Source: Fimbriiglobus ruber (GTDB lineage Bacteria; Planctomycetota; Planctomycetia; Gemmatales; Gemmataceae). Taken from it: a stretch of 64,000 bases of DNA. A model generated the notes under the pieces. That model made no database searches. It was not told where the DNA came from and saw only the letters and a list, made by a program, of their open reading frames with translations. Numbering within the stretch: position 1 is the first letter of the stretch; each line of letters starts with the position of its first letter. Made by a program: the position numbers and the translations under genes. The stretch is from assembly GCF_002197845.1 (NCBI RefSeq), contig NZ_NIDE01000008.1:496001-560000 (forward strand), given 5' to 3'. Positions 21,206 through 41,525 of this stretch are shown here, one piece after another.

Positions 21206-21423
21206 GATCAACAACCCACCGCGATCAGGAGGCCGCCTCCTAACTTCAGAATTCTCGGCGTGAAAGATTGGGACACCTGCCCGGTATTCATGTTAACATT
21301 CAATGATTGCTCGCCCCGTTGTTGTCCCCCGACAAATTGATGGGTGATTGTTCCTTCGTTCGCCTAAAAACTGACGTGCCGAGTGCGGCGCTGATCCCAC
21401 ACGACCCGCCCCGGGAACTTCCG

Positions 21424-22659: not shown

Positions 22660-22700
22660 TCTCTCCGCTCGTTCTTTTCTGTCACCCGGAGAGTCTTCTC

Positions 22701-24290
22701 ATGCTTCGCCGGTGTGGAGGCGAATCGGTCTTGTCCAAGCTCCTCACAACGGCCGCGCTCACCGCGGTCTGCTTCGGGTTATGCGTTCCCGCGGCGGCCG
22801 CGCCGCCCGATCCGCAAGCACTCGCGGACCGTATCGACGCACACCTCGACGCCCGGCTGACGGCCGCGAAGGTGACGCCCGCACCGCCAGCCAGCGACAC
22901 CGAATTTCTCCGCCGGGCCTGTCTCGACATCACAGGGCGAGTTCCGAAGCCGCGTGACGTGTACGACTTCCTCGGTGACTCCGACCCCGCCAAGCGAGCG
23001 AAGCTGATTGATGAACTGCTGGAAATGCCACGGTACGCCTCGCACTCCGCGGCTGTGTGGCGGGCCGCGCTCGCTCCGGAGACGACCGCTGTCCCTGAAG
23101 CGCGGGTGTTCCAGACCGGGTTCGAGGCGTGGTTGCGGATCAAGTTCCGCGCGAACACGCGTTACAACGCACTCGTCCGCGAACTCCTGACCGTCCCGCT
23201 CAGTGCCGACGCCGGCTCGCCGACGCCTGCCCTCCGGCGGCCGGAAGACCCGAACCCGCTCGCCTTCTACGCCGTGAAAGAGGCGAAGCCCGAGAACCTT
23301 GCGGCCGCCACAGCCCGCGTCTTCCTCGGCGTCCAGATCGAGTGTGCCCAGTGCCACGACCACCCGTTCGCCCGCTGGACCCGCGACCAGTTCTGGAACC
23401 AGGCCGCGTTCTTCGCGGGCGTCGAACGCCACGGCGACGGCCTGTTCGCCCCGATGTCCGAAACGATCTCGGTCCGCGTCATCACTCCGATGGGCGGCAA
23501 GAAGCCGGTACCAGCGTGGCTTCTCGATGACCGGGAGCCGAGTCGATCGCCCGATGTCAGCCTGCGGGCGGCACTCGCCGGATGGGTGACGGCGAAGGAC
23601 AATCCGTTTTTCGCCCGCGCCGCCGTGAACCGCGTCTGGGGCCAGTTCTTCGGCCGCGGGATCGTTGATCCGGTGGACGATTTCCACGACGACAACAAGC
23701 CGAGCCACCCGGAACTGCTCGACGAACTGGCCAAAGCGTTCGCCGACAGCGGGTTCGATTTCAAGTATCTGATTCGTGCCATCGGCCGGACAAAAGCTTA
23801 TCAGCGGACGAGTGCCCGAACCGAGTCGGCGCAGGACGATCCGCGGCTTTTCGCGCGGATGTCCCTGAAAGGGCTGACCGGCGAGCAGTTGTTCGATAGC
23901 CTCGTGCTGGCGACGGGCTTCCGGGAGGGCGGCGGCCGGGGTGCCCCGCGCGAGCAGTTCCTGACCCGGTTCGCACTGTCGGGCAAGCCGGCCGAGCCCG
24001 AGACTTCGATCCCGCAAGCCCTGGCCCTCATGAACGGGAAGTTCGTAAACGACGCGACGACCGTGGGGGCGAGCCCGACTCTCACCGCGGTGTGCGAACT
24101 GCCCGGGCTGACGACCGGTGGGCGGATCACGGCGTTGTACGTCGCCGTGCTCAGTCGCGAACCGATGCCGAAGGAGCTGAATCGGCTTGTGAGATATGTA
24201 GACGGTGCGGGTAAAGATCATTTGGCGGAGCGGCTCGGCGACGTGTTCTGGGTGTTGCTCAACAGCGCCGAATTCCGGCTCAACCACTGA
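22701..24290 (+). CDS. DUF1549 and DUF1553 domain protein
   Basis: This 529-residue protein has a signal peptide (LLTTAALTAVCFGLCVPAAAA). DUF1549 occupies residues ~35-240 (LRRACLDITGRVPKPRDVYDFLGD) and contains CAQCHDHPF, a CxxCH motif able to bind haem c. DUF1553 follows (NPFFARAAVNRVWGQFFGRGIVDPVDDF... and TGEQLFDSLVLATGF). Unlike the protein at the right edge of the window, it lacks an N-terminal PSCyt1 domain. Function is unknown; these proteins are taken to be cell-envelope redox or polysaccharide-related factors that pair with DUF1501. The DUF1501 gene starts 15 bp downstream, so the two are coupled. Confidence 0.92.
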   Translation: MLRRCGGESVLSKLLTTAALTAVCFGLCVPAAAAPPDPQALADRIDAHLDARLTAAKVTPAPPASDTEFLRRACLDITGRVPKPRDVYDFLGDSDPAKRAKLIDELLEMPRYASHSAAVWRAALAPETTAVPEARVFQTGFEAWLRIKFRANTRYNALVRELLTVPLSADAGSPTPALRRPEDPNPLAFYAVKEAKPENLAAATARVFLGVQIECAQCHDHPFARWTRDQFWNQAAFFAGVERHGDGLFAPMSETISVRVITPMGGKKPVPAWLLDDREPSRSPDVSLRAALAGWVTAKDNPFFARAAVNRVWGQFFGRGIVDPVDDFHDDNKPSHPELLDELAKAFADSGFDFKYLIRAIGRTKAYQRTSARTESAQDDPRLFARMSLKGLTGEQLFDSLVLATGFREGGGRGAPREQFLTRFALSGKPAEPETSIPQALALMNGKFVNDATTVGASPTLTAVCELPGLTTGGRITALYVAVLSREPMPKELNRLVRYVDGAGKDHLAERLGDVFWVLLNSAEFRLNH

Positions 24291-24305
24291 CCTCGGAGGC
24301 GACTC

Positions 24306-25592
24306 ATGCGGACGCCACTTTCGCGGCGCGACGCGCTGAAACTCGGGGCCGCCGGTCTGTCCTCCGGCTGGCTCTCCGCCCTCGCCGCGTCGGCGGCCGA
24401 CCACCCGGACCGCACGCGGTCGTGCATCGTCCTCTGGATGGCCGGCGGGCCGACCCAGACCGACACGTTCGACCCGAAACCGGGCCACGCCAACGGCGGA
24501 CCCTTCAAGGCGATCGACACGGCCGCGGCCGGGGTGAAGATCGGCGAACACCTGCCGCTCGTCGCTGGGCAGATGAAGCACCTCGCGGTCGTCCGGTCGA
24601 TGGCGACCAAGGAAGGCGACCACGGCCGCGCCTCGCTTCATCTGCGGACCGGCAACTTGCCGCAGGGCGCCATTGACTTCCCGGTGTTCGGATCACTGAT
24701 AGCCAAGGAGCGGGAGCAACCCGGGAACGACCTGCCGGGATACGTCAGCATCACTCCGCGCGGGCTGGGCACGGCAGCCCTGTCGGCTGGGTTCCTTGGT
24801 TCGCAGTACGCCCCGATGGTCGTCGGCGGGGACTCGGCCGGGGGCGACGGCCCCGGCGGTCTTCGGGTCGAAAACCTCGGGCTCCCCACAAACGTCTCGC
24901 AACGCCGCGCGGACGAGCGGCGGGAGTTACTGGACGAACTGGAAGCCGACTTTCTGGCGGCTCGCCCCGGTGCCGCGACGAATAGCCACACCTCGGCTTA
25001 CCAGCGTGCTGCCCGACTCATGCGCGAGTCGGCCGCGAAAGCGTTCGACCTGTCCGACGAAAATGACAAGCTGCGCGACCGCTACGGCCGCAACCGTTTC
25101 GGCCAAGGGTGCCTTCTCGCCCGCCGGCTCGTGGAGCGTGGTGTGCCGTTCGTCGAAGTCACGCTCGGCGGGTGGGACACGCACGACAACAATTTCGGGC
25201 AAGTGAAATCGCTTTGCCAAACCCTCGATCCCGCCTGGGCCACGCTGATGGCCGATCTCAAGGACCGGGGATTGTTAGACACCACCACGGTCGTCTGGAT
25301 GGGGGAGTTCGGCCGCACGCCCGGCATCAACCCGCGTCAGGGCCGCGACCACTACCCGAACGCCTGGAGCGTGGTCCTCGGCGGCGGCGGCATCGTCGGC
25401 GGGCAGTCGGTCGGGAAAACGGGCAAGGACGGGATGGCGGTCGAAGACCGGCCCGTCGCGGTGCCCGACCTGCTCGCGACCGTCTGTCTCGCCCTCGGCA
25501 TCGACCCGCGAAAGCAAAACCTGTCGAACGTTAACCGCCCGATCCGCATCGCCGACCAGTCGGCCAAGCCGATCAAAGAGGTGCTGGCGTGA
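24306..25592 (+). CDS. DUF1501 family protein
   Basis: This 428-residue protein has a Tat-type leader (LSRRDALKLGAAGLSSGWLSALAASAA). The family blocks are CIVLWMAGGPTQTDTFDPKPGH, VVRSMATKEGDHGRASLHLRTG, VTLGGWDTHDNNF, VVWMGEFGRTPGIN and GRDHYPNAWSVVLGGGGIVGG. It is the standard operon partner of the DUF1549/1553 protein just upstream. Its stop overlaps the GTG start of the EF-hand gene. Confidence 0.93.
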   Translation: MRTPLSRRDALKLGAAGLSSGWLSALAASAADHPDRTRSCIVLWMAGGPTQTDTFDPKPGHANGGPFKAIDTAAAGVKIGEHLPLVAGQMKHLAVVRSMATKEGDHGRASLHLRTGNLPQGAIDFPVFGSLIAKEREQPGNDLPGYVSITPRGLGTAALSAGFLGSQYAPMVVGGDSAGGDGPGGLRVENLGLPTNVSQRRADERRELLDELEADFLAARPGAATNSHTSAYQRAARLMRESAAKAFDLSDENDKLRDRYGRNRFGQGCLLARRLVERGVPFVEVTLGGWDTHDNNFGQVKSLCQTLDPAWATLMADLKDRGLLDTTTVVWMGEFGRTPGINPRQGRDHYPNAWSVVLGGGGIVGGQSVGKTGKDGMAVEDRPVAVPDLLATVCLALGIDPRKQNLSNVNRPIRIADQSAKPIKEVLA

Positions 25593-26959
25593 GGTCAGGG
25601 CTGGTCTGCACACTCATCCTGTTCGGCTGCGTCCGGGCGGCCGCAAGCGCCCCCGTCCTGCTCTTTCCCAAGGACACCGGCGGCACGGCCCACCTCCGCT
25701 TAGAGGTGGCGGCCGACGGGAAGCCCGCGGACGTGGTGTGGGCGGCATTTCTGGACAAGCTATTCGATCACTTCGACCGGGACGCCGATGGCCTCCTCTC
25801 TCCGGCAGAAGCCGCACGGGTGTTCCCGCTCCCGCTTCCCGGCGGTCGCGACGTGAAGATGGAGTTCGCGAAGTTGGATGCGGACCGAGACGGCCGGGGC
25901 AGCCGGGCGGAGTTTCGCGCGTTCTATTTGGCGGCCGGGTTCAGCCCGGTTGTGGCTGTCGTGAAGCCCGCGTCGATTGAATCGTTGGCACTCGCGGATG
26001 CACTGTTCCGCTACCTCGATCGGGACGGGAACGGCCAGCTTTCGGCAGCCGAACTCTGTCAGGCTCCGACTCTCTTGCGACGGGTCGATGAAGACGAGAA
26101 CGAAGTCCTGACGGCGGCCGAACTGCTCGGTTCCGCGCCGCCCGGTGCGATCCCAACTCGCGGTCTGAAATTCGCCCCGGCTGACGAGAGGTTGACTCCT
26201 GACGGCGTACTCGGATTGCTGATCGGCGGAAAAATTGGACTCACGGCCGGAAGCCCGATGTTCCACCTAACACCAGACGGCTCTCACCTGACGGTCCCAG
26301 GCGGAACCTGCACCGTGACGGTTACGCCCGACGATCCGACGGTCGGCTTCCGGGCCGCGAAGAGGTTCTATCTGGCTCAGTTCAAAGCCGCGGCCAACGG
26401 GAAGCCGGTCAAGAAAATGGCGTTCGACGACGACCCCTCCACGCAAGCCCTCGCCGGCCTATTCGACGCCGCTGACCGGGACGGTGACGGGATGCTGACC
26501 TTGGCCGAATTGGAGGCATTCTTCGCGCTGGTCGAAAGCGGTGTCGGGTGCCGGGTCGTCGTTACGGTGGTCGATCGCGGGCGAAACTTATTCGACCTCT
26601 TCGACGCCAACAACGACGGCCGACTCGACCTTGCCGAATTGATCCGGGCCGCTCGTGAGTTACCCGACAAACTGGCGAAGGAAAAATCGGTCACGCGAGA
26701 TCAAATACCGACGTCGTACCGAATCTCGGTCGGCCGCGGTTCCGTCGGCGACTCGTTCGGACCGGTCCCGTTCGGGACGCCCGCGAAGCCGAAACCGGTG
26801 GCGCGGGCGCCCGTGGGCGGCCCACGCTGGTTTCGGTCGATGGACCGGAACGGCGACGGCTTTGTCTCCGCCGCCGAGTTCGTCGGCCCGCCGGACTTGT
26901 TTTTAAAACTGGATACCGATGGCGACGGGCAAATCAGTGTGCGGGAAGCACTTAAATAA
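25589..26959 (+). CDS. Exported EF-hand calcium-binding protein
   Basis: The 456-residue protein starts at GTG 25589, overlapping the previous stop by four bases, and has a leader ending near AAASAP. It holds about eight EF-hand-type loops, among them DRDADGLLSPAEA, DRDGNGQLSAAEL, DRDGDGMLTLAEL, DANNDGRLDLAEL, DRNGDGFVSAAEF and DTDGDGQISVREA. Two others (DADRDGRGSRAEF, DEDENEVLTAAEL) are less canonical. It probably binds Ca2+ in the periplasm or at the surface and may stabilise the DUF1549/DUF1501 pair. It is the last gene of the operon and faces the TIR gene convergently. Confidence 0.9.
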   Translation: MRSGLVCTLILFGCVRAAASAPVLLFPKDTGGTAHLRLEVAADGKPADVVWAAFLDKLFDHFDRDADGLLSPAEAARVFPLPLPGGRDVKMEFAKLDADRDGRGSRAEFRAFYLAAGFSPVVAVVKPASIESLALADALFRYLDRDGNGQLSAAELCQAPTLLRRVDEDENEVLTAAELLGSAPPGAIPTRGLKFAPADERLTPDGVLGLLIGGKIGLTAGSPMFHLTPDGSHLTVPGGTCTVTVTPDDPTVGFRAAKRFYLAQFKAAANGKPVKKMAFDDDPSTQALAGLFDAADRDGDGMLTLAELEAFFALVESGVGCRVVVTVVDRGRNLFDLFDANNDGRLDLAELIRAARELPDKLAKEKSVTRDQIPTSYRISVGRGSVGDSFGPVPFGTPAKPKPVARAPVGGPRWFRSMDRNGDGFVSAAEFVGPPDLFLKLDTDGDGQISVREALK

Positions 26960-27011: not shown

Positions 27012-29849
27012 TTACTCGGTTTCAGTGGCTTTAGGTAGTTTTGGCCCTGGCGGTCGCTTCGCACGCATAACAGAGGCGGCAATCCTGTGTGCCAAAGATC
27101 GGTCAATCTCTAGTTTTGAAATTGCTAATTGGGCCGACGCTTCTTGCTCGACAAAGGAGTAAAACCAAGAGCGATAGCGCAAAGAATAAATTGCCGACGG
27201 CGGAGTTAAAGGTTCTGTCAAAGCATTGTCAAGCTGATTGTGCCAGTATTGTTTCTGATCACGTAAATGATCAATATTCAAGATGGTGTTTTTTGCACTG
27301 TCGATAATCTTTTGGTCATCATGATTGCCACCGACGGACGGGCCCGGCGGCTCTTTATGCGATTTCAAATCGTCTCCGAATACTACTCTGCCCCGACTGG
27401 ACAAGCCGTCAAAAAGTGACGGGTACAATTGCAGTCGGTTAACGTCGAAACCTGAACGAGTGTCACAACAGATTAGCAATGTTCTGGCATTAGACATTGG
27501 CCAACACAAAGCGGCAATGGTTGCTTCATATTGAATAGATTCAAATAGTAGATTGCCGTCGGGAATGCTCCATATTCGGATTTTCATGTCAGAGTGTGCC
27601 GTCGCCAAGGCAGCGCCATCGGGAGACCATGCGATTTGTGTTACACTCGTCTGTTGATGATTAAAGACAGGTAGCCGGGTATCTATGTTCCATATTTTTA
27701 TTGTGTTGCCAGATAAAACGGCTAAATGACTTCCGTCCGGGCTCCAGTCCAACATGGTAGCATCGGAAGAGTTCTTGGCCAAAATAAAAGACGCGAACGC
27801 GGGCGATGCTATATCAATAATACTCACGACGTGTTGATAATCTATTGCCATTTTCGATCCGTCGGGGCTCCACTTCACGGTTGTGTACTTTCTGCGTATG
27901 TCGCATAAACCGTCTCTTTCGCTCGCACTAACGTCGTACGTGTAAAACCTTCCATCAGAGTCCTCAAGTATCACATGTTCACCGTCGGGATGGATTTCTA
28001 TTGGCCGCGCTTGCCTATTAATAGATTTCTCAAATGGCGCAACACTGCCGTTCGTATCATATATATAATCTAAGCCCGATCCATCTCGTCGACGCAAGAT
28101 AAATCGTCTATCGTCTGCCAACCAATTGACGACGTAATTACCGCCGAAGAAATGATTGCCGGGGCCGTTATTGATATAAAATAATCTTATTACGCTATTC
28201 ATATTTATGTCGCAGATTTTTATTTGGTCATTGTTTTGTACTGCGAGCCGTGTTCCGCCGGCGCAAAAGAACGCGCCTCTGTAATCGGCGGGCAACGTTT
28301 CTCGGCCCCTTGTATTTATACTATTGTCATATGCCGACAGGTAGGTCGAAGTTTTTTCCCACGTAAACAATGTTAATGGTGATTGAAATTTAGTCGCAAT
28401 TGCAGTCGCCGCAACTATCGCAGTAAAAAATATATAGCCATTAATATTTTGGCGCTGCTTTAGTATTCCGCGGGCGGCGTTTCGGCGAACAAATCGAGCG
28501 ACGTAGATGGGCAAAGGAAACAGAAGAACATCGGCATACAGCCAAACCATTTGGTCGTATAAAAAATTATAATGCGTGGTCGTATTGATAAATTGGAATT
28601 GATTGCTATTTGCCGTCTTTGTCAATATCTCGCGACAGTCCTTCAGATAGCGATCTATGGATTCCCCGCGCATGTCGTCCGTCCTGTCGTTGTGGTGGTC
28701 TATCGCTTCATTCGCGGTAAAACAAACGGAAATGGCTCGCTCGCCGTTGCTTATAGTAAGGTGGCGCTTCCCATTCCACCAATGATTGTCATCAAGGCGG
28801 ACGGTGCTGTCATCGAGTGATATTTCTTCGTTGCCACCTTTTCCATCTGACAATTTTGTAATCGTTTTTCCGGTTTTACCATCCTTTTCAAGGACAAAAT
28901 AGCGACGATTTACAGCTACATAATATGGGCTCTGATAGCCAATAAAAAAGCCATCGTCGATTTGACGGCCGCTATCTGCCAACTGGGGGCCATGTGAATT
29001 GGCGTATCTGCCGAGAGGGTCCCACGTCCTCATATATACCATAATATTTTTATCGATAATCGCTGAGTTTCTGTCGATCCGGTCGCGATTGCCTAGAATT
29101 GCGATTAATACAATTGCCACCACAATATAGCGATGGATGTGTCTCGTGACGAGTTGTGGAAATCCGACGCATACGAATACGTCAATAACCTTTAGCGAGA
29201 CACAAGCTAGCGTGATTAAACCCAGAATTATCGCCAAATACATGATGTGCTTTTCGCGGGCGCCAATAGATAACCATGCGGTTCCGTAGGTCCACAAGGC
29301 GAGGAAGGCCACGATCGCGAAGTGGAGCGAGTGTAATTTAAACTGTCGCGATCTTAGCCCCCGGGCCTTGTCCTCTGTAGAAGGTGATTTCAAGCCCGGG
29401 CATTTCCCTTTTAGTACATTGGCAAGTGCAGCAAAGTCGCCAGGGAAAGACGGGTCAGATTTGATAGTAAATGCGTGTAAAAGACAAATTTTTTGGATGG
29501 ATACTGGCAGAATGTGGCTGGCGGGCATTTTTTGTTCGTCAATCAGAATAGGTATCACTGTTTTTGATGAAAACTTTAGTGCTGTTTCGATTTCGAACTT
29601 TGCGTAATCTTTTTCACTGGAAGATTCTTTTCGCTGTAGCTCTTCTAACCATTTGCTGCCAATTAACACTAAAATAACCTTGGAATCGGATATCGCTATT
29701 TCGAGTTGCTTTTCAAAATCCTCGCCCTCTTTCAACGAACCAGTATCTCGAAAAATCTCATTTTTCCCGAAGCTACTAACTAGAAAATCGTTGAGCCTGT
29801 CGCAGAAGTGCCTGTCCTCGCGTCTGTAATTAACGAATATCGAGGCCAT
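27012..29849 (-). CDS. TIR domain - transmembrane - WD40 repeat protein
   Basis: This is a 945-residue protein. Residues 1-125 are a TIR domain (SIFVNYRREDRHFCDRLNDFL, VILVLIGSKWLEE, DYAKFEIETAL), with the likely catalytic Glu at E86. Bacterial TIR domains of this type usually cleave NAD+ in immune systems. Residues ~160-255 contain three hydrophobic helices, 255-435 a soluble region, and ~435-490 two more helices. The C-terminal ~450 residues form a WD40-like propeller with WSPDG repeats at about 660, 702 and 741. A five-helix count would put the propeller outside the cell, and six or four inside; the count is uncertain. Base composition is far more AT-rich than in its neighbours, so horizontal gain is likely. 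It stands alone. Confidence 0.9.
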   Translation of the reverse strand: MASIFVNYRREDRHFCDRLNDFLVSSFGKNEIFRDTGSLKEGEDFEKQLEIAISDSKVILVLIGSKWLEELQRKESSSEKDYAKFEIETALKFSSKTVIPILIDEQKMPASHILPVSIQKICLLHAFTIKSDPSFPGDFAALANVLKGKCPGLKSPSTEDKARGLRSRQFKLHSLHFAIVAFLALWTYGTAWLSIGAREKHIMYLAIILGLITLACVSLKVIDVFVCVGFPQLVTRHIHRYIVVAIVLIAILGNRDRIDRNSAIIDKNIMVYMRTWDPLGRYANSHGPQLADSGRQIDDGFFIGYQSPYYVAVNRRYFVLEKDGKTGKTITKLSDGKGGNEEISLDDSTVRLDDNHWWNGKRHLTISNGERAISVCFTANEAIDHHNDRTDDMRGESIDRYLKDCREILTKTANSNQFQFINTTTHYNFLYDQMVWLYADVLLFPLPIYVARFVRRNAARGILKQRQNINGYIFFTAIVAATAIATKFQSPLTLFTWEKTSTYLSAYDNSINTRGRETLPADYRGAFFCAGGTRLAVQNNDQIKICDINMNSVIRLFYINNGPGNHFFGGNYVVNWLADDRRFILRRRDGSGLDYIYDTNGSVAPFEKSINRQARPIEIHPDGEHVILEDSDGRFYTYDVSASERDGLCDIRRKYTTVKWSPDGSKMAIDYQHVVSIIDIASPAFASFILAKNSSDATMLDWSPDGSHLAVLSGNTIKIWNIDTRLPVFNHQQTSVTQIAWSPDGAALATAHSDMKIRIWSIPDGNLLFESIQYEATIAALCWPMSNARTLLICCDTRSGFDVNRLQLYPSLFDGLSSRGRVVFGDDLKSHKEPPGPSVGGNHDDQKIIDSAKNTILNIDHLRDQKQYWHNQLDNALTEPLTPPSAIYSLRYRSWFYSFVEQEASAQLAISKLEIDRSLAHRIAASVMRAKRPPGPKLPKATETE

Positions 29850-30127
29850 GTTTGATTCTCACGAATAATATTTAAATTATTAATGATAAAATTTTTTTGA
29901 ATATATTTCCTAAGTCTATCGTCTGGGCCGAATATTTTAAAGTGCTCGTTTTTTAAGCTGTTTCATCTCTCTTGCTCAAGCAATTATCTTGTGTGTGGAT
30001 TGGTAATTTGTTAGCTTCAGCATAATCGCCAAGCCTGCCGTGGTCAAGCAATTAGAGTTATCGCGGGACGAACTTTGCGATTAAGTTTAACTGCATGCGG
30101 TATCAACCGTTCCGAGGATTTCGACGG
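29850..30127. other. AT-rich upstream region of the TIR gene
   Basis: These 278 bp include a stretch of almost pure A/T just before the TIR gene start. They probably hold its promoter and mark the edge of an acquired segment. No insertion sequence end or tRNA was found. Confidence 0.5.
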
Positions 30128-30919
30128 ATGTCTATCGCCTCCGCTAGGGCCTCCCGGGCACTCACCGGCGATCGGTGCGACGCCTACCACGCCGACGGAT
30201 ACCTGATCGTCCGCGGCCTGTTCCACCCGACCGAGATGGCGCTCGTCTCGATGGAAGCCGACCGCCTCTTGTCGCACACGGACCTGATGAACACGGACAA
30301 CATCCGCTGCCGCTGGCAACCGCACTGCGAGAGCGGCGACTGTCTGTTCGAGACGTTCGACCCCGTCATCGATCTCTCGCCCTTGCTGGCCATCCTCGCC
30401 CGCGACCCGCGACTACTCGCCGTGATCGCCGACCTCTACGGCGAACCGGCCCACCTGTTCAAGGACAAGCTCATCTTCAAGCCGGCCGGCGCGAAAGGGC
30501 ACGACCTGCACCAGGATTACATCTCCTGGCCGACCTTCCCGACCTCGTTCGTGACCGCGGCCGTCGCCATCGACCCGTGCGCCCCGGACAACGGCTGCAC
30601 CGAGGTGTATCCCGGCGTCCACCGCCGCGGTTACCTCTCCCCGGCCGATGGCGACTACCACCCACTTCCCGAACGGGAAGTCGAGGGAGTCGACCCCGTC
30701 CCGCTCGTTCTGGCCCCGGGAGACGTCGCCATTTTCGGCGGCTACACCCCGCACAGGTCCGCCCCGAATCGCTCGACCACCTCGCGCCGGTTACTTTACT
30801 TGAGCTACAACGCCGACTCCGATGGGGGCGAACAGCGCGACGCCCATTACCGGGAATTTCACGTTTGGATTCGCGGAAAATACGCCGAATACGGTAAGCA
30901 CCAGACATACTTCCGGTAA
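30128..30919 (+). CDS. Phytanoyl-CoA dioxygenase (PhyH) family protein
   Basis: This 263-residue non-haem iron(II)/2-oxoglutarate oxygenase has the facial triad HxD at H128-Q-D130 (HDLHQDYISW) and a distal His at H209 (YTPHRSAPN). The Arg for 2-oxoglutarate lies about 11 residues later. The family hydroxylates varied small molecules, often at an unactivated carbon. It is followed in the same direction by an MFS transporter and two VOC fusion proteins, so its substrate may be one handled by that unit. An upstream ATG at 30095 is possible, but the ATG at 30128 suits the fold better. Confidence 0.88.
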   Translation: MSIASARASRALTGDRCDAYHADGYLIVRGLFHPTEMALVSMEADRLLSHTDLMNTDNIRCRWQPHCESGDCLFETFDPVIDLSPLLAILARDPRLLAVIADLYGEPAHLFKDKLIFKPAGAKGHDLHQDYISWPTFPTSFVTAAVAIDPCAPDNGCTEVYPGVHRRGYLSPADGDYHPLPEREVEGVDPVPLVLAPGDVAIFGGYTPHRSAPNRSTTSRRLLYLSYNADSDGGEQRDAHYREFHVWIRGKYAEYGKHQTYFR

Positions 30920-31069
30920 AGGAAGTGGCGGCTCACTCGCGCCGCTGCGTTCTGAAGTACGGGGTAGGTGGCGGAAGGCCGCATCTGTACTTGCTCGCTC
31001 GCTTTCCTGACCCATTCCCCCCGACTTCCCGGGCTTTTCGCCTCGGGCTCGCACGACGTGGCAACCGCA

Positions 31070-32353
31070 ATGGGAAACGAGCCCTTGAACGCTGCCGGCA
31101 TTGCGGCTCCAGTTATGGACGGGAGGCCGTCTCACCCACGGTTCTACTACGGGTGGGTGAACGTGATCGTTGCGGCGGTGGCGATGTCGGCCACGCTCCC
31201 GGGACGAACTTACGGGTTGGGCTTAATCAAGGAACCGCTCCGGGCCGATCTCGGCATCAGTGACTTGCGGTTCAACGTTTTGAACTTTTGGGCGATCGTC
31301 CTCGGCGCAATCGTTGTCATACCAGTCGGTTGGCTGATCGACCGCTTGGGTACGCGGGCAGTTCTGGCCGGCGTCACCGCGTTGCTCGCGACGTCCGTCT
31401 TCCTGATGAGTCGCGTGACGAGCGAGTGGGGGTTATTCGCCACCCTGACGCTCGTTCGCGGGTTGGGTCAGGGTGCCCTGTCGGTGGTCGCCATCGCGCT
31501 CGTCGGCAAGTGGTTTCGGCGCCGGGCCGGGATGGCGATGGGGGTCTTCACCGTTCTGCTCGCGCCGGGGTTTGTAGCCCCGATTTTCGTCGTCGGTGAG
31601 ATCGTCAAGCAGTCGGGCTGGCGGGTTGCCTGGATCGATATCGGGCTGGCGCTGTTGTGTGGCCTGCTGCCGCTCGGGTGGGTGCTTGCCCGGAGTTCGC
31701 CGGAAGCCGTCGGGGTGCCCGCGGATGACCCGGTCGCCGACGACGGGCCATCCCGGCCGATGACCCTGTGGGCCGCCCTGCGGACGCCCGCCTTCTGGGT
31801 GTACACGGCCGCGGCCACGGTGTTTAACCTGACGTTCTCGGCCCTGACGCTCGACAACCAGTCGCTCCTTACGGAACACGGCCTGGACGGAAAAGAAGCC
31901 AACGACCTGGTCCTCGGCGTCCTCATGTTGAGCGGGCTTCCCGTCAACGTACTGACGGGCTGGTTGGCCCGACGTCTCTCGCTCGGAAAGTTGCTCGCCA
32001 TCGGCGTGGCCATCCTGACCGCATCCCTGGCTTTCTTCCCGTCGATCGCGAGCCTGGGCGGAGCAGCTGTGTACGCGGTGTTGCTCGGCGCGGCCGGTGG
32101 TGTTATTACGGTGATTTTCTTCGCCGTTTACGGGCACACTTACGGGCGGACGCACCTCGGGTCGATCCAGGCAGCGGTACAAGTGCTTTCGGTCCTCGCG
32201 TCGGCGACCGGGCCGGTGATCCTGGCCGTTTGCCGCGAGCAGTTCGGGAAGAGCGACACATTTTTTTACGGATTCGCCGTCGTGACGGCCGTGCTGATGC
32301 TGGCCGCGTGGTGGGTTCGCCCGCCGGTCGTGCCGCGTGGAGAGGGAATTTAA
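31070..32353 (+). CDS. MFS transporter, oxalate/formate-antiporter-like
   Basis: This 427-residue protein has twelve likely helices. It starts FYYGWVNVIVAAVAMSATLPGRTYG and has the signature loop WLIDRLGTRAVLAGV after helix 2. The MFS loop GKWFRRRAGMAMG is after helix 4. The layout and FYYGW start are those of the OFA/monocarboxylate-like MFS group. The substrate is unknown; its neighbours suggest an organic acid or organometalloid. Only two bases separate its stop from the next gene's ATG, indicating one operon. Confidence 0.88.
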   Translation: MGNEPLNAAGIAAPVMDGRPSHPRFYYGWVNVIVAAVAMSATLPGRTYGLGLIKEPLRADLGISDLRFNVLNFWAIVLGAIVVIPVGWLIDRLGTRAVLAGVTALLATSVFLMSRVTSEWGLFATLTLVRGLGQGALSVVAIALVGKWFRRRAGMAMGVFTVLLAPGFVAPIFVVGEIVKQSGWRVAWIDIGLALLCGLLPLGWVLARSSPEAVGVPADDPVADDGPSRPMTLWAALRTPAFWVYTAAATVFNLTFSALTLDNQSLLTEHGLDGKEANDLVLGVLMLSGLPVNVLTGWLARRLSLGKLLAIGVAILTASLAFFPSIASLGGAAVYAVLLGAAGGVITVIFFAVYGHTYGRTHLGSIQAAVQVLSVLASATGPVILAVCREQFGKSDTFFYGFAVVTAVLMLAAWWVRPPVVPRGEGI

Positions 32354-32355
32354 GT

Positions 32356-33453
32356 ATGGCGTCCCTGCCGGTCATCGAGTCGCCGAGCGACACGACGGTC
32401 AAGTTCCACATGTCGCTCAACGTCTCCGACCTGACGCGGGCGGTGGAATTCTACCGCGTGCTGTTCGGTCTCGCCCCCGCGAAGAGGCACGACGATTACG
32501 CCAAATTCGAGTTGAACGACCCGCCCGTCATCTTCTCCCTGGTCCCCCGCGCCCCCGGCCCCGGCGCATCGCTCAGCCACATTGGACTGCGGGTGGCGAC
32601 CGACGAGGTCATCGGCGAGTATCGCGCCCGGTTGGAAGCTGCCGGCATCTGCAGTGAAGCCCAAGACGACACGGTCTGCGGTTATGCGCGTCAAAATAAA
32701 CTGTGGGTGAAAGACCCCGACGGCAATTTCTGGGAGGTCTACCGGGTCGAAGAAGACGTGTCGCCGGTGACGATTCGGAAGAGCGTCGAGGGGCCGGCGG
32801 CCCGGGTCGATGCGTGCGGACCCGCGGCCGATGCCGGCGTGCCCGTCGTCTGGGAGCATTTCGTCACCGCACCGCTGCCGGACCGTATCCCTCACGACGA
32901 CGGCACCGTCGACGAGGTGCGACTTGTCGGCACGTTCAACGCGGATCTGACCGAGGCCCAGCGCGACTTTCTCGTGGCCGAGGCGGCGCGGGTGCTGAAG
33001 CCCGGCGGGAAGGTGTTGACCCACGGATTGATGGGCGACCGGGCTTTTCCGGGCGCGCAGCCGAAGTTGCCGGGGTTGGCCGCGATGGTGGCTCGCGTCC
33101 CGGTGCATACGGAGCCGATCGGGGCATTGAGTCGGGCCGGGTTCGTCGGCGTTCAGGTGGTCAAGTTCACAGAACAGCCCTGGTTCGTCCAGGATGGCGT
33201 CGAGATGCGCGAGGTCAAACTGGTCGCCTGGAAGCCCGATTCCGCGGCCGCGGAGGGAGCCCGGCTGTTACTCTACAAGGGACCATTCGCCCGCGCGACC
33301 GCGGACGGCGGGCATACGTTCGAGCGGGGACGGCGGGTAACGGTTCCGGTCGCCGTCTGGCGGCAACTCCGACACGGCCCGACGGCCGACCAATTCCTGT
33401 TTTTCGAGCCGGGGACTGGGCTACCTTGTTCGACGACTGAGGGGACACGATGA
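32356..33453 (+). CDS. ArsI/CadI-type VOC domain fused to ArsM-like C-terminal region, paralogue 1
   Basis: This is a 365-residue protein. Residues 14-133 form a VOC domain like ArsI, the Fe-dependent lyase that breaks C-As bonds of methylarsenite and aromatic arsenicals. The metal ligands are in place: H18 (KFHMSLNV), H75 (SLSHIGLRV) and E127 (FWEVYR). The ArsI arsenic-binding cysteine pair reads C108-G109 here, so one Cys is lost. Residues ~155-340 resemble the second half of a class I methyltransferase (RVLKPGGKVLTHGLMGD) and the tail of ArsM (LLYKGPFARATADGGHTFERG). The SAM-binding GxGxG motif is missing. It sits after the MFS gene and overlaps the next gene by four bases. Confidence 0.85.
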   Translation: MASLPVIESPSDTTVKFHMSLNVSDLTRAVEFYRVLFGLAPAKRHDDYAKFELNDPPVIFSLVPRAPGPGASLSHIGLRVATDEVIGEYRARLEAAGICSEAQDDTVCGYARQNKLWVKDPDGNFWEVYRVEEDVSPVTIRKSVEGPAARVDACGPAADAGVPVVWEHFVTAPLPDRIPHDDGTVDEVRLVGTFNADLTEAQRDFLVAEAARVLKPGGKVLTHGLMGDRAFPGAQPKLPGLAAMVARVPVHTEPIGALSRAGFVGVQVVKFTEQPWFVQDGVEMREVKLVAWKPDSAAAEGARLLLYKGPFARATADGGHTFERGRRVTVPVAVWRQLRHGPTADQFLFFEPGTGLPCSTTEGTR

Positions 33454-34460
33454 CGACCGCGACGATCGAATCGCCCGCCACGACCGGGACGCGGTTCCAC
33501 GTCGGTTTACACGTGGCCGATCTGGGTAGGGCCGTCCAGTTCTACCGCGTCCTCCTCGGCGTTCCCCCGGCCAAACACTTCGACGACTACGCGAAGTTCG
33601 AGTTGGCCGTGCCGCCGCTCGTGATCGCGCTGTACCCCAGCCCGCAGCAAGCGGGTGGGGCGCTCAACCACGTCGGCCTACGCTACCCGGACTCGGGAGC
33701 ACTGGTCGAAGTCCAGCGCCGTCTGGAAGAGGCCGGCATCGCGACCCAGCGGCAGGAGGGCGTCGAGTGCTGCTACGCCCGCCAGACGAAGTTTTGGGTG
33801 ACCGACCCGGACCGGACGCTGTGGGAAATCTACACCCTCCACGAAGACACCGAGCACTCGGGCTTCGACGACCCGCCGGCCATGCAAACGGCCCCCACGG
33901 CCGTCTGGCAGCACCGCATCACCGACCCGTTACCCGAACGCATCCCACATTCCGACGGTAGCCTCGACGAAGTGATTCTCGAAGGAACCTTCAACGCTCT
34001 GATTCCGTGCTGGCGACTCTCCCAACTGCTCGCGGACGTCCACCGATCACTGAAGCCGGGAGGCAAGCTGTCGGTCCACGGGTTGGTCGGCGACAAGCCG
34101 TTCCCGGGCGAGCCCAAACTTCCCGGCATTGCGTCGTTGGTTCGCCGCGTGCCGGTCGAAACCGAACCGCTTGGGCAACTCCTCCGCGCCGGCTTCGGCG
34201 GGCTCTTCTACGAAAAGCTCGGCGACATCCACTGCTTCTCGGTGAACGGGGTCGAACTCCGCGAACTTCGATTGCACGGGTGGAAGCCGGGAGCCGCGGC
34301 GGGCAGCTGTCCGGTGATGTACAAGGGGCCGTTCGAGCAGGTGACCGACGAGTGCGGCACCGTTTACCGCCGGGGCGCACGGGTGATGGTGTCCGCCCTG
34401 GTCGCCGGCTGGCTGCGAACCGGCCCGGCCGCCGACCAGTTCACGTTTCTGCCGACTTAG
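33450..34460 (+). CDS. ArsI/CadI-type VOC domain fused to ArsM-like C-terminal region, paralogue 2
   Basis: This 336-residue protein is a tandem paralogue of the upstream gene with the same two-part design. The VOC part keeps the metal ligands H17 (RFHVGLHV), H74 (LNHVGLRY) and E126 (LWEIYT), and the full vicinal pair C107-C108 in ECCYARQTKFWVTDPD. That is the arsenic-binding signature of ArsI. The C-terminal part has SLKPGGKLSVHGLVGD and VMYKGPFEQVTDECGTVYRRG, again without a SAM-binding motif I. With one copy keeping both Cys and the other one, the two products may form an asymmetric pair or differ in substrate. Its stop codon lies inside the 21-bp arm of an inverted repeat. Confidence 0.86.
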   Translation: MTTATIESPATTGTRFHVGLHVADLGRAVQFYRVLLGVPPAKHFDDYAKFELAVPPLVIALYPSPQQAGGALNHVGLRYPDSGALVEVQRRLEEAGIATQRQEGVECCYARQTKFWVTDPDRTLWEIYTLHEDTEHSGFDDPPAMQTAPTAVWQHRITDPLPERIPHSDGSLDEVILEGTFNALIPCWRLSQLLADVHRSLKPGGKLSVHGLVGDKPFPGEPKLPGIASLVRRVPVETEPLGQLLRAGFGGLFYEKLGDIHCFSVNGVELRELRLHGWKPGAAAGSCPVMYKGPFEQVTDECGTVYRRGARVMVSALVAGWLRTGPAADQFTFLPT

Positions 34461-34539
34461 AGCCTATCCCAGAACCCATAAATCATCCCGGATTCGACCG
34501 GAATAGTGATGTTTTTCCGGGTTCTGGGATAGGCTCTAA
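34457..34539. repeat. 83-bp palindromic element with 21-bp perfect arms
   Basis: TTAGAGCCTATCCCAGAACC at 34457-34476 (plus one more C) recurs inverted at 34519-34539. The ends resemble terminal repeats of IS5-like elements, so this is either a tiny MITE or a leftover pair of IS ends with the middle lost. It includes the stop codon of the upstream gene and can also fold as a terminator. Confidence 0.65.
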
Positions 34540-35224
34540 GGACGACTCGACGGATCACATCCCGATTCCGGGAGTGGAAGACCTGTCGGGAACGTTCTTC
34601 GGCCTCGCTTCTGGGGAACGTCTCGTTCGGTCGATCCGAGCGCACGACCGCGCAGAAACCCGCCCGGCCGGCGCGTGCAAGTCGATGCCCGTCGACGAAA
34701 CGCGGTCCACGGCGCCGACATTTTTCGCCGCAGTGATATCGTCGTCCGTCCACTGTCAGAAAACGCGCTGCAAGGCGCAAAAAGCGCAAAAACCCCCTCG
34801 GGCCCAGCTTTCGAGGCCCCGCCGGTCCCGTCCCACCGGTGTCCGGGGTTAATCTGAGGTGGGAGGGGCGGTTCGATCCGCTTGGGAACCCGCGGGTCCG
34901 GACCGTGTCGGCCGGTCACGGCCCTTGGTCCGGACGGGAGAGAACGATCCCGAATGTTCTCCGAACGCGATTGCTGGGAACTTATCTTTCGGCCAATCCT
35001 CAATGCGTTCGCGCCACACCTGTGATGACTGATGAGGGGCGCGTTTTGGTGGTTGGACTCGCGAACACCGGCATAGTCGCAGGTGCCTCCGCGGATCTCA
35101 ATCACTCATATTAATATCATTGGTGCGAATGTCTAGCAGGACGACCCGGTGCGATTGTTCGCTCGAATACAGATCAGATTTACGAACGAGAACCCGAGAG
35201 GTGGTTAGCCGCGAGGTGTGAAAA
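34540..35224. other. Long intergenic region, nothing recognised
   Basis: About 685 bp lie between convergent genes. Open frames here have erratic composition and no family similarity. No tRNA fold was seen. It may be the remains of lost genes. Confidence 0.5.
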
Positions 35225-37450: not shown

Positions 37451-38473
37451 ATGTGGAAAAAAGTGCTGCTCTGTGCCGTGGCCGTTTACGTGCTCGCGGC
37501 GGCTGGCTGGGTCGTTTCGGCCGGCGTGGTTCGGTCCCGGGCCGAGGTCGAACTCCTCAACGCCGCATGCGACCCTACTCGTGAGTTGTGGCGCGACCTG
37601 AACGCCCGATTCATCACCCGTTACGAGCAGGAGCGCGGCGCGAAGGTCGTAATCCGCCAGTCGCACGGCGGGTCGGGCAGCCAGGCGCGGGCGGTCATCG
37701 ACGGGCTCGGGGCCGACGTGGCCACGCTCGCCCTCTTTTCGGATACGGACGCGATCCGGAAGGCCGGGTTGATCGACGAGGGGTGGGAAAGTCGGCTGCC
37801 GAACCGCTCGCTCCCGTTCGTCTCGACGATCGTGTTTGTGGTCCGCAAGGGGAACCCGAAGAACGTCCACGACTGGCCCGATCTGGTCCGGCCGGGCGTC
37901 GAGGTGATTACCCCGAATCCGAAAACTTCCGGTAACGGGAAGTGGAGCTTTCTCGCCGCGTGGGGGGCGATCCGGCACAAGGGCGGGTCGGAAGACGAAG
38001 CCCGCGACTACGTGACCCAACTCTACCGCCAGGTGCCGATCCTCGACGCTGCCGCCCGCGGGGCCACGATGACGTTCGCCACCAAGCGCCAGGGCGACGT
38101 TCACCTGACCTGGGAGAACGAGGCGTTCCTGGAAGTTCAGGAAGCGGCCGGCGAACTGGAGATCGTCTACCCGCCGGCGAGCGTACTCGCCGAGCCCCAT
38201 GTGGCGGTGGTGAGCGCGAACGTCCGCCGGAAGGGGACCAAGGTCGTCGCCGAGGCGTACATGAACTTCCTCTACACGGAGGAAGCCCAGGAGATCATGG
38301 CCCACCACTACTACCGGCCGACCGATCCGGCCGTGTGGAAGAAGGTGGAAAGCCAGTTCCCGAAGATCGACCTGTTCCCGTTCGCGACGGTCGGGCCGAC
38401 GTGGGACGTGATCCAGAAGCGATTCTTCGCGGAAGGCGGAGTCTTCGACCAGATTTACGCGCGGAAGCCGTAG
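37451..38473 (+). CDS. Sulfate/thiosulfate ABC transporter substrate-binding protein
   Basis: This 340-residue periplasmic protein has an N-terminal helix (LLCAVAVYVLAAAGWVVSAGV). The Sbp/CysP blocks are ELLNAACDPTRELWRDLN, IRQSHGGSGSQARAVIDGLGADVATLA, NPKTSGNGKWSFLAAWG and TWENEAFLE, followed by a C-terminal YRPTDPAVWKK. The SHGGSGSQ loop forms part of the oxyanion site in known sulfate-binding proteins. It should capture sulfate or thiosulfate and hand it to CysTW. A 233-bp gap with a long inverted repeat separates it from cysT. Confidence 0.92.
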   Translation: MWKKVLLCAVAVYVLAAAGWVVSAGVVRSRAEVELLNAACDPTRELWRDLNARFITRYEQERGAKVVIRQSHGGSGSQARAVIDGLGADVATLALFSDTDAIRKAGLIDEGWESRLPNRSLPFVSTIVFVVRKGNPKNVHDWPDLVRPGVEVITPNPKTSGNGKWSFLAAWGAIRHKGGSEDEARDYVTQLYRQVPILDAAARGATMTFATKRQGDVHLTWENEAFLEVQEAAGELEIVYPPASVLAEPHVAVVSANVRRKGTKVVAEAYMNFLYTEEAQEIMAHHYYRPTDPAVWKKVESQFPKIDLFPFATVGPTWDVIQKRFFAEGGVFDQIYARKP

Positions 38474-38490
38474 GTATGGGCTGGAGGTAG

Positions 38491-38652
38491 CCCCCGGTGT
38501 CCCCGGGCTCCCGCCCGGGTCTACGTTAGGCCGCCCCGGAGGGGCGGAAGGCGCCAACGGACAGGACGAGATCGTTGCCAGAAAAACCTGATTTCCCGCC
38601 CCTCCGGGGCGGCCTAACGTAGACCCGGGCGGGAGCCCGGGGACACCGGGGG
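38491..38652. repeat. Perfect 57-bp inverted repeat inside the sulfate operon
   Basis: The arm 38491-38547 (starting CCCCCGGTGTCCCCGGG) is exactly complementary to 38596-38652, with a 48-nt loop. Each arm also holds a smaller palindrome around CCCGGGC. The RNA would fold into an extremely stable hairpin between the binding-protein and permease genes. It could lower expression of the downstream genes, protect the upstream mRNA 3' end, or simply be a MITE-type insertion; no flanking duplication is clear. Confidence 0.8.
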
Positions 38653-38705
38653 CCGACTGCAACCCGGGCCGGCCTAACGGACATTGATGGCACCAGGAGT
38701 GCGGA

Positions 38706-39530
38706 ATGAGTACGGTCGGGCGGAACGTGCTGCCGGGGTTCTCGCTGGGGCTGGGGTACACGGTGATGTACCTCACGATCCTGGTGCTGATCCCGCTCGC
38801 GGCCTGCTTCCTGAAGGCGTCCGAACTGAGCCCGGAAGAGTTCCTGGCAGCAGTTTGGACGCCGCGGGCGCGGGCGGCTTACGGGCTTACGTTTACTGCC
38901 TCCCTCGCCGCGGCCGTCATCAACGTCGTGATCGGGCTTATCGTGGCGTGGACACTGGTTCGCTACGATTTCCCGTTCAAGCGATTCATCGACGCGCTCG
39001 TGGACGTGCCGTTCGCCTTGCCCACGTCGGTCGCCGGATTGGTGTACGCGGGACTCTACGTTAAGGACGGCTGGCTCGGCCAGTTCCTCGTACCGCTCGG
39101 GATCGAAGGCGCGTACTCGCGGTTGGGGATCATCCTCGTACTCGTCTTCACCGGCTTCCCGTTCGTGGTGCGGACGGTGCAACCCGTCCTCGAAGACTTG
39201 GACGCCGAGACGGAAGAGGCGGCCGCGGTCCTCGGGGCGAACCGGTGGCAGACGTTCCGCCGGGTAATCGTCCCGACGCTGCTGCCGCCGGCCTTGACCG
39301 GATTCACGCTGGCGTTCGCCCGCGCGATCGGCGAGTACGGGTCGGTCATCTTTATTTCCAGCAACATGCCGTACCAGACGGAAATCGCCCCGGTATTGAT
39401 CGTGGCCCGCCTCGAAGAGTTTTCGTACCGTGAGGCGGCGGCCATCGCGGTCGTCCTCCTGTCGTTCTCGTTCGTCCTGCTGGCGATCATCAACCTTCTG
39501 GAACGGTGGAGCAAACGCCATGACGGCTGA
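38706..39530 (+). CDS. cysT: Sulfate ABC transporter permease CysT
   Basis: This 274-residue permease has about six helices (LGYTVMYLTILVLIPLAACFL at the start, IINLL at the end). The ABC inner-membrane motif EEAAAVLGANRWQTFRRVIVPTLLPPAL is the coupling helix that contacts CysA. It forms the channel with CysW. The start ATG follows GGAGTGCGG. Its stop overlaps the start of cysW. Confidence 0.93.
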   Translation: MSTVGRNVLPGFSLGLGYTVMYLTILVLIPLAACFLKASELSPEEFLAAVWTPRARAAYGLTFTASLAAAVINVVIGLIVAWTLVRYDFPFKRFIDALVDVPFALPTSVAGLVYAGLYVKDGWLGQFLVPLGIEGAYSRLGIILVLVFTGFPFVVRTVQPVLEDLDAETEEAAAVLGANRWQTFRRVIVPTLLPPALTGFTLAFARAIGEYGSVIFISSNMPYQTEIAPVLIVARLEEFSYREAAAIAVVLLSFSFVLLAIINLLERWSKRHDG

Positions 39531-40470
39531 CGCCCACGGCCACTCCACCGGGGCCGTCCTCGACGCCCCGGCTCCCGACGCCCCGCCATCGTCCGCGGGC
39601 GCTCCCCGGACGCACCGGGCGACCTCCGACCCGTGGTACGTTCGTTGGAGCCTGACGGGCCTGACGCTCGGCATCGTCGGGTTGCTCATCGTCGTGCCGC
39701 TCGCCAACGTCTTTTACCAGGCGCTGGCGAAAGGGGTGGCGGTCTACTGGGACAACCTGGTCAACAACGCGGACACCCGGCACGCGATCTTCCTGACGCT
39801 GATGGTCGCGCCGGTCGCGGTGGCCATGAACGTGGTCTTCGGCATCGCCTCGGCGTGGGTCATCGCCCGGTTCCGGTTCCCCGGGCGGGCGATCCTGACG
39901 ACGCTGATCGATCTGCCGTTCTCGGTCTCGCCGGTCGTCGCCGGCCTGGTCTTCGTGTTATTGTTCGGCCTCCAGGCCCCGGGCGGCGTCTGGCTGCGGG
40001 ACCACGGGTACCAGATCATTTTCAGCCCTCCGGGTTTGGTCCTCGCGACGGCGTTCGTGACGTTCCCGTTCGTCGCCCGCGAGTTGATTCCAGTTCTGGA
40101 GGCGGTCGGCCCGGACGAGGAAATGGCGGCCCGGAGCCTGGGCGCGTCCGGTTGGCAGATGTTCTGGCGGATCACGCTGCCGAACATCAAGTGGGGGCTG
40201 TTGTACGGCGTCATCCTGTGCAACGCCCGGGCGATGGGCGAGTTCGGGGCCGTGTACGTGGTGTCCGGGCGGATCGGCGGGCAGACGGACACGATGCCGC
40301 TGCGGGTGGAGAAGTTGTTTCAGGAGTACAACACGCCGGCCGCGTACGCGCTCGCGTCGGTCCTGACGATGTTGTCCCTGGTGACGTTGGTTCTCAAGGT
40401 CGGCATCGAGCGGAAACTCCGGCAGGAACAGGCGCGGCCGACTACCGTGGCCGAGGAGACCATCGCGTGA
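39520..40470 (+). CDS. cysW: Sulfate ABC transporter permease CysW
   Basis: This 316-residue permease starts at ATG 39520, overlapping the end of cysT by 11 bases. A ~45-residue Pro/Ala-rich cytoplasmic leader precedes the first helix ([22 protein letters not shown]). The coupling motif is [29 protein letters not shown], and the family block [36 protein letters not shown] is present. The extended N-terminus is longer than in enterobacterial CysW. The stop overlaps the GTG of cysA. Confidence 0.93.
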
Positions 40471-41525
40471 GTATTACCGCCCGCAGCGTGAACAAGAAGT
40501 TTGGAAACTACACGGCCCTCGACAACGTGACGCTGGACGTGCCCGAAGGCGAACTGCTCGCCCTGCTCGGGCCGTCCGGCTCCGGGAAGACGACCCTCCT
40601 GCGCGTCATCGCCGGGCTTGAAACGCCGGACAGCGGGAGCGTTCACCACCTCGAAGACGACGTGACCCGGCACTCGGCCAAGGACCGCAACTTCGGCTTC
40701 GTCTTCCAGCACTACGCGCTCTTCCGGCACATGAGCGTGGCCGAGAATGTCGCGTTCGGGCTCCGCGTCCGCGGGTGGGCGTCCGCGGACGTGAACAAGC
40801 GGGTGAGCGAGTTGCTCGCCCTCGTCCGCCTGGAAAACCTCGGCTCCCGCTACCCCGCCCAGTTGTCCGGCGGCCAGCGACAGCGGGTGGCCTTGGCCCG
40901 GGCACTGGCGGCCCGGCCGCGGGTATTACTGCTCGACGAACCATTCGGTGCCCTCGACGCCCGCGTGCGGGCCGAACTCCGCCAGTGGCTCCGGAACCTG
41001 CACAACGAGGTGCCGGTGACGACGATCTTCGTGACGCACGACCAGGAAGAGGCGTTCGAAGTCGCCGACCGCGTGGTGGTCATGCACCGCGGCAAGGTCG
41101 AGCAGGCGGGGACGCCGGAGGAAGTGTTTGAACACCCGGCCAACGCTTTCGTGATGGACTTCCTCGGGCAAGTGAACGTGTTCCACGGCCGGATTCACGA
41201 CGGCAAAGCGATCGTCGGCCGGTGGGAACTGGACGTCCCCGAGTACCGGAGCTACGCGAACGGCCCGGCCCGGGTCTACGTCCGCCCACACGAACTCGAC
41301 CTGACGACCCACGCGAACGGCGACCCGGCCCTGGCGGCCCTGGTGTCGCACGTCAACCCGGCCGGCGCGATCACGCGGGTGCGGGTCTCGGTTAAGGAGT
41401 TCGGGATCGATCTGAACGTCGACCTGACGGCCGCCCGGTACGCGGAACTGCGGATCAAGAAGGGGGACAACGTGTACGTCTCACCGCGCCGCGTCAGGGT
41501 GTTCGAATCGGACTACGCGATCTAA
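40467..41525 (+). CDS. cysA: Sulfate ABC transporter ATP-binding protein CysA
   Basis: This 352-residue ATPase starts at GTG 40467 ([13 protein letters not shown]). Walker A is GPSGSGKTT at 35-43, the ABC signature LSGGQ at 133-137, and Walker B VLLLDEP at 153-159. The switch His is in [11 protein letters not shown]-terminal regulatory region of ~110 residues follows ([13 protein letters not shown]). The protein powers sulfate/thiosulfate uptake with CysTW. The gap to the encapsulin gene is 283 bp in the same direction, so a separate promoter for the encapsulin unit is likely. Confidence 0.95.

Follow-up and report, generated by a model that had tools for sequence, protein, structure and literature searches.

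What would a bacterium do with an enzyme that cuts carbon-arsenic (C-As) bonds once it has been fused to what remains of an enzyme that makes them? This question is raised by a locus of Fimbriiglobus ruber, a planctomycete of the Gemmataceae with a genome of 12.36 Mb, which we analyzed within a stretch of 64,000 nucleotides (contig NZ_NIDE01000008.1, positions 496,001 to 560,000; hereafter the window). At positions 30128-34460 of the window, four genes lie on the + strand: a PhyH gene, a gene of the major facilitator superfamily (MFS), and two genes, termed here F1 and F2, in which an ArsI-type vicinal oxygen chelate (VOC) domain is fused to a remnant of the arsenic methyltransferase ArsM. An earlier, sequence-only reading had seen in them a possible organometalloid detoxification unit. 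On balance, we think it probable that the whole is a planctomycete organoarsenical detoxification operon, in which F2 would be an Fe(II)-dependent C-As lyase.

The ArsI-like half of the fusions

Both VOC domains exceed the cut-off (116 bits) of the NCBIfam model ArsI_CadI_VOC (NF041414), with 132.5 bits for F1 and 126.5 bits for F2, a result that does not separate ArsI from CadI, as the model pools the two. The solved structure nearest to the VOC domain of the fusions is that of TcArsI (E 1.5e-22). The available part of PMC12607644 lists the residues of ArsI as the metal ligands (Q/H-H-E), the vicinal cysteines, and a Tyr, a Gln and a Lys. F2 holds every catalytic residue given there, the first ligand being a His as in the Bacillus ArsI; its metal triad is H17/H74/E126, and its Y47, Q112 and K114 correspond to the catalytic Tyr38, Gln103 and Lys105 of ArsI. 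All the residues of this list are likewise present in 23/23 aligned fusions of the single-copy type. The equivalents of the triad and of the Tyr, Gln and Lys are found in F1 as well, so the sequence-only reading was right to announce a complete metal triad in both paralogues. It was equally right about the cysteines, which read in the alignment as C107-C108 in F2 and as Cys-Gly at the same place in F1.

The F1 of the window thus retains all the listed residues but one: at the second substrate thiol, it has G instead of C. Most ArsI residues are kept among the F1-type proteins in general, with the second Cys turned into Gly in 7 of the 8 aligned. Judged by its sequence, F1 is not a canonical ArsI, and we ruled out that it is a plain second copy of ArsI, since the second thiol is missing. 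Of the twin ArsI proteins proposed earlier, F2 stands with both its thiols, and F1 does not. In two F1-type genes the second metal His is itself replaced, by Lys in L111:5563-6579 and by Arg in L074:5339-6358; this loss suggests that F1 is decaying in some lineages.

With a model of the whole F2 protein, Foldseek returned C-As lyase and ArsM/AS3MT structures at ranks 1-28; VIA-align of the same model mostly tested its VOC part, and ArsI is absent from its 50 rows. Elsewhere, the genome carries a stand-alone VOC gene that also passes the ArsI/CadI cut-off and adjoins a gene of the ArsR/SmtB type. In the VOC tree, in which the F1, F2 and single-copy subclades are starred, the VOC domains of the fusions and this stand-alone gene form one clade (97/94), around which lie TcArsI and those VOCs of planctomycetes that have the Cys pair. 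Clustering with non-arsenic dioxygenases, the alternative that the earlier reading had named, is not seen, with the outgroup not cleanly separated. This tree leaves out four rows (two divergent L072 copies and two outgroup VOCs); as no branch sets its whole outgroup apart and its bootstrap is unsettled, it is uncertain in which order the clades of F1, F2 and the single-copy type arose.

The ArsM remnant

The C-terminal halves score weakly against the NCBIfam model methyl_ArsM (40.3 bits for F1 and 42.8 bits for F2; cut-off 500). Aligned by hhalign with 12 full planctomycete ArsM, the C-terminal half obtains a probability of 99.8% (E 2.3e-30, 172 columns). A model of this half of F2 alone (predicted local distance difference test, pLDDT, 92.8; predicted template modeling score, pTM, 0.85) retrieves ArsM or human AS3MT at Foldseek ranks 1-13 (E 3.9e-10), the anamorsin domain being the next family. 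In VIA-align it matches CrArsM with a Z of 12.0 (rmsd 6.1, 184 residues), and other methyltransferases tie on Z but align fewer residues. The half, as modeled, is a methyltransferase fold, with ArsM as the match that spans its entire length. The likeness to the second half of ArsM, which had been drawn from the sequence, is therefore upheld by both the profile alignment and the predicted structure.

As had also been noticed, the stretch with motif I (DLGxGxG) for S-adenosylmethionine (SAM), present in the ArsM set, is missing from the fusions. The loss is wider than was claimed, for the catalytic cysteines are gone too: the SNC cysteine (12/12 ArsM) is a Gly in 29/29 full-length fusions, the SGC cysteine (12/12 ArsM) is a Cys in 0/29 of them, and the VCxKT cysteine is also replaced. 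With both the SAM motif region and these cysteines gone, we rejected an active methyltransferase; the appended half is, as far as its residues tell, catalytically dead.

What purpose could a dead half then serve? We favor a scaffold in which C262 would probably be a third thiol that retains the arsenite product. Such a thiol would have a purpose because ArsI binds arsenite poorly, its binding being described as not significant in the accessible part of PMC12607644. The C262 position, a Trp in ArsM, is a Cys in 21 of the 29 full-length fusions and a Trp in all 8 of the F1 type. In an alignment of 37 fusions, 29 combine the Cys-Cys pair, C262 and the full triad, and the other 8 are F1-type proteins with the Trp, 7 of them with Cys-Gly. 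From this alignment, L115 and L116 were omitted as presumed near-copies of L113 and L114, L123 and L127 because a contig end truncates them, and the second copies of L102 and L111 because they are broken. Other members of the fusion family have an additional Cys in the C-terminal tail, and the F2 type has none. Three short F1-type genes (L069:8584-9225, L078:8437-9075 and L072:8316-8885) consist of the VOC domain and the GPF-RG tail of ArsM only; the part in between is missing, and so is the normal Cys pair.

It is a credible possibility, although one that we place below even chances, that the ArsM half is a protein-protein or folding module with a SAM-less fold like that of anamorsin and binds no arsenic, a reading under which the VOC domain could still cleave C-As bonds. 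Such a module would agree with the disappearance of the SNC, SGC and VCxKT cysteines, with anamorsin coming next to ArsM in Foldseek, and with the absence of parts of the half from some members, the tail being missing in some fusions (8/37 aligned) and the middle part in the short F1-type genes. It is harder to reconcile with C262, found in 29/29 fusions with the Cys pair and full triad and in 0/8 of the F1 type, even though this is a clade pattern, and with the tail Cys, kept in 14/15 full fusions of the single-copy type and in 7/8 of the F1 type, but in 0/6 of the F2 type.

Distribution and gene neighborhood

The fusion is found in 25/95 genomes of the family, by a manual tally that counts the partial G347 as well as G309, G345, G346 and G386 (one stop inside the matched stretch), and in 4/294 genomes drawn from the phylum, that of the window included. 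A scan of contigs with two short patterns gave 34 loci, of which 32 bear planctomycete names, while of the other two one has no more than Bacterium as its title and one is called Bacteroidales (L099); since these patterns reach close relatives only, the scan does not show that the fusion is absent more widely. L099 is probably a mislabeled metagenome-assembled genome from the family of the window. A chance open reading frame (ORF) or a local oddity was rejected, as the fusion recurs widely. Plasmid cargo was rejected too: 106 plasmid records match F2, 0 of them cover at least 80% of it, and coverage is at most 61% among the 15 matches listed. The fusion is not specific to this genome and represents an old family among planctomycetes. 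As to the earlier impression that fusion and duplication look new, we recognized no description of an ArsI-ArsM fusion in the open-licence literature, among the matches listed.

Gene linkage was examined in 46 of 58 loci, 12 that repeat an already counted contig being left out, and the fractions refer to the 34 loci with at least 4.5 kb upstream, namely 22 single-copy and 12 multi-copy ones (the window included), with L078 counted among the single-copy loci despite a short F1-type gene ahead of its fusion. Near single-copy fusions, PhyH is found in 22/22 loci, MFS (counted if on the same strand and at most 5 kb from the fusion) in 21/22, an upstream DUF1559 gene in 20/22 and an ArsR gene within 5 kb in 15/22, one of which (L039) carries an ArsR of another type. 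The corresponding figures for multi-copy loci are 4/12 (only a fragment in L081), 11/12, 6/12 and 2/12. The same search around 12 ArsM loci (9-10.5 kb) found PhyH, MFS, DUF1559 or ArsR in 0/12. The DUF1559 gene, pseudopilin-like, lies upstream of PhyH and MFS, for example in L075, L077, L107 and L114.

An ArsR-type regulator, which the sequence-only reading had suggested looking for in relatives, is present beside the operon there, though not within 5 kb of the copy in the window. An N-terminal CA and a C-terminal GCC motif occur in 19/22 ArsR rows (three rows repeat a contig). Both of the operon ArsR tested (2/2) exceed the cut-off of an ArsR/SmtB metalloregulator model that is general and not arsenic-specific, and one exceeds that of Pfam HTH_5. 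As far as the available part of PMC4287715 goes, AfArsR has a C-terminal Cys site and becomes selective for organoarsenicals when cut to two Cys.

These regulators also bear on a soft-metal role of the VOC domain, CadI-like and directed at cadmium or thiophilic metals, which would make the operon a metal-stress unit without C-As cleavage. We consider this unlikely. ArsR-family repressors respond to Cd/Pb/Zn as well (PMC4287715, same part), the operon ArsR passes only the general model, NF041414 merges ArsI with CadI, and the Cys pair of the VOC domain could bind other metals; but this domain is fused to an arsenic-methyltransferase remnant, retains the catalytic residues of ArsI including the equivalents of Y38/Q103/K105, and has a C-As lyase as its closest solved structure, while an Fe/2-oxoglutarate (2OG) oxygenase in the operon fits simple metal binding poorly.

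The oxygenase, the transporter and the source of the substrate

In 40 rows, partly duplicates, the HxD...H Fe ligands and the Arg of the operon PhyH show a conservation of at least 95%. Among the NCBIfam families, the PhyH of the window scores best with the methylphosphonate hydroxylase PhnY (NF052437), at 87.9 bits for a cut-off of 500, and PhnY is the best curated family for 4/4 operon PhyH tested (77-99 bits). Against the same model, two of the five other PhyH in the genome score 57.5 and 40.1 bits, and three give no match. As the scores remain far below 500, this similarity is a lead to an oxyanion-methyl substrate and not a sign of membership. In the PhyH tree, which has long branches, the operon PhyH is set apart from the five others only at an SH-aLRT of 94. 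The MFS is nearest to the L-lactate and oxalate-formate types of NCBIfam; ArsK is matched with an E of 1e-4 (21.3 bits, cut-off 400).

A catabolic role, which we hold to be improbable, would start from these same affinities: an environmental organoarsenical or phosphonate-like compound would be imported for its carbon, PhyH acting on the pentavalent acid in the manner of PhnY. That PhnY is the top family for all four operon PhyH, above the other PhyH of the genome, that the MFS is closest to lactate and oxalate-formate types, and that the part of PMC2754498 at hand presents the DUF1559 proteins as solute-binding would fit such an import, but PhnY scores fall far short of the cut-off, the MFS may transport in either direction, and the ArsR-type neighbors fit a response to toxicity.

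Where would a toxic substrate come from? A profile of 12 planctomycete ArsM found no full-length ArsM in this genome; besides the halves of the two fusions, at 86.4 and 61.3 bits, it picked up only two matches to the SAM motif, at about 30 bits. The best scores of the genome with NCBIfam ArsM models are 43.7 and 68.7 bits; these cut-offs cannot test the absence of ArsM, because three real planctomycete ArsM fall short of them too (348-364 of 500 bits and 196-209 of 263 bits). An ArsM of its own making the substrate was rejected on the profile search, which a divergent ArsM could escape. It is thus unlikely, going by the genes found, that the cell makes methylarsenicals by the ArsM route, and the substrate is probably made elsewhere. 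Acr3 has no match in the genome.

A proposed pathway and its weak points

How might these parts act together? An organoarsenical of other microbes would enter the cell, and PhyH would beforehand hydroxylate its organic group. The VOC domain of F2 would hold Fe(II) by its metal triad, bind the trivalent organoarsenical (methylarsenite, for example) through its two vicinal thiols and insert O2 into the C-As bond. The inorganic arsenite freed in this way would be retained by the candidate third thiol until its export by the MFS. With an intact Fe site and one substrate thiol, F1 could handle a different arsenical or assist F2. Control of the gene set would fall, in relatives, to a repressor of the ArsR type that carries a vicinal Cys pair.

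Several points weigh against this organoarsenical reading. PhyH is absent near 8/12 multi-copy loci, with a fragment in L081, and no ArsR lies within 5 kb of the copy in the window. The ArsI/CadI model covers CadI too, and C-As cleavage by F2 is a prediction. The MFS is below the cut-off of every NCBIfam family, and the one ArsB-family match of the genome (52.5 bits) could export arsenite in its place. The association of the Cys pair with C262 reflects a clade and is no set of independent events. Finally, the arrangement of the two domains in the whole-F2 model is not trusted (pTM 0.56), so that C262 may or may not lie near C107/C108.

A stepwise demethylation, in which the thiols of each lyase would equal the free bonds of its arsenical, is to us doubtful at best: PhyH would first hydroxylate a methyl group, F1, with one Cys and an intact Fe site, would convert dimethylarsenite into methylarsenite, from which F2, with two Cys, would release arsenite, and C262 would hold the arsenite for export as the third thiol. 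If true, it would provide enzymes for the aerobic demethylation of dimethylarsenicals.

Relation to known systems

The known ArsI (TcArsI, the ArsI of Bacillus MD1 and NsArsI) share with the fusions the VOC fold, the metal triad, the Y/Q/K residues, the vicinal Cys pair (in F2 and the single-copy type) and the linkage to ArsR in relatives. In contrast, the usual ArsI is a single domain of about 126-146 aa, whereas the fusions reach 336 and 365 aa with their ArsM remnant, and the planctomycete fusion is duplicated, with a Cys-Gly paralogue. The partners differ as well, since the ArsI of Bacillus and Nostoc go with arsB/arsC, in the parts of the sources available, and the fusion with PhyH, MFS and DUF1559 instead. 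With ArsM/AS3MT, the fusions have in common the second half of the chain, the GPF...RG tail and the C-tail Cys (in most single-copy and F1 types), but they are without the SAM motif region, their SNC, SGC and VCxKT cysteines are replaced, and a Cys stands for the Trp. The CsdB-ArsI-like protein of SAR11 (PMC6426599, in the part available) is likewise a larger protein with an ArsI-like domain, proposed to demethylate methylarsenicals; its partner, however, is a cysteine desulfurase and not an ArsM remnant. PhnY, finally, is a PhyH-type Fe/2OG enzyme like that of the operon, from which it is separated by the gap between 77-99 bits and the required 500.

Gene layout and surroundings

The coordinates of the features are collected in Table 1. 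The start of PhyH is taken at ATG 30128, a second in-frame ATG lying upstream at 30095; those of MFS (31070) and F1 (32356) are our choice, the ORFs opening at 30968 and 32230, respectively. The four genes had been described as tightly spaced, which holds for MFS, F1 and F2 (2 bp between the first two, and a 4-bp ATGA overlap between F1 and F2) but not for PhyH, which is separated from MFS by 150 bp; tight packing is thus limited to the last three genes.

Table 1. Features of the fusion locus, in window coordinates
Feature	Position	Strand	Evidence
PhyH-type Fe(II)/2-oxoglutarate oxygenase, 263 aa	30128..30919	+	Pfam PhyH E 1.4e-30
MFS transporter, 427 aa	31070..32353	+	Pfam MFS_1 E 4.6e-34
F1: ArsI-like VOC (Cys-Gly) and ArsM remnant, 365 aa	32356..33453	+	Glyoxalase E 4.5e-13
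F2: ArsI-like VOC (Cys-Cys) and ArsM remnant, 336 aa	33450..34460	+	Glyoxalase E 2.1e-11
F2 VOC domain, aa 15-141 (H17, Y47, H74, C107, C108, Q112, K114, E126)	33492..33872	+	
F2 ArsM-remnant half, aa 148-336, SAM-less, ArsM catalytic Cys replaced	33891..34457	+	
C107-C108 codons, putative substrate thiols by homology to ArsI	33768..33773	+	Sequence; PMC12607644 (in part)
C262 codon, added Cys of the ArsM remnant	34233..34235	+	F1 and the 12 compared ArsM have Trp
Perfect hairpin, about 21 bp	34457..34540	.	Fold -54.1 kcal/mol, z -8.8

The hairpin lies directly 3' of the F2 stop and has no T run; its 18-base arm has no second site in the genome with at most 1 mismatch allowed, and it is probably an end-of-transcript structure. 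Upstream of the operon, within 21307-26959 and 27012-29849, lie a block of PQQ-propeller, DUF1549/1553, DUF1501 and EF-hand genes and, between this block and the operon, a TIR-WD40 gene of the - strand; the same PQQ-propeller/DUF block brackets MFS-F1-F2 in several relatives (L064, L066, L068, L071 and L113). On the other side, the genes at 37451-41525 resemble those of a sulfate-type ABC transporter.

Significance for planctomycetes

In this locus, a bond-cutting enzyme is fused to the remnant of a bond-making one and accompanied by a hydroxylase and a transporter, which would make it one more example of an enzyme domain put to new use as a scaffold, in this case one that may bind arsenic. 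According to the available part of PMC10579292, the demethylation of methylarsenite has a known lyase, ArsI, and the mechanism for dimethylarsenic is called unclear. The conserved operon offers named candidate genes for this missing dimethylarsenic step, including, in some genomes, a one-thiol paralogue. The operon probably lets planctomycetes dismantle toxic organic arsenic that comes from other microbes.

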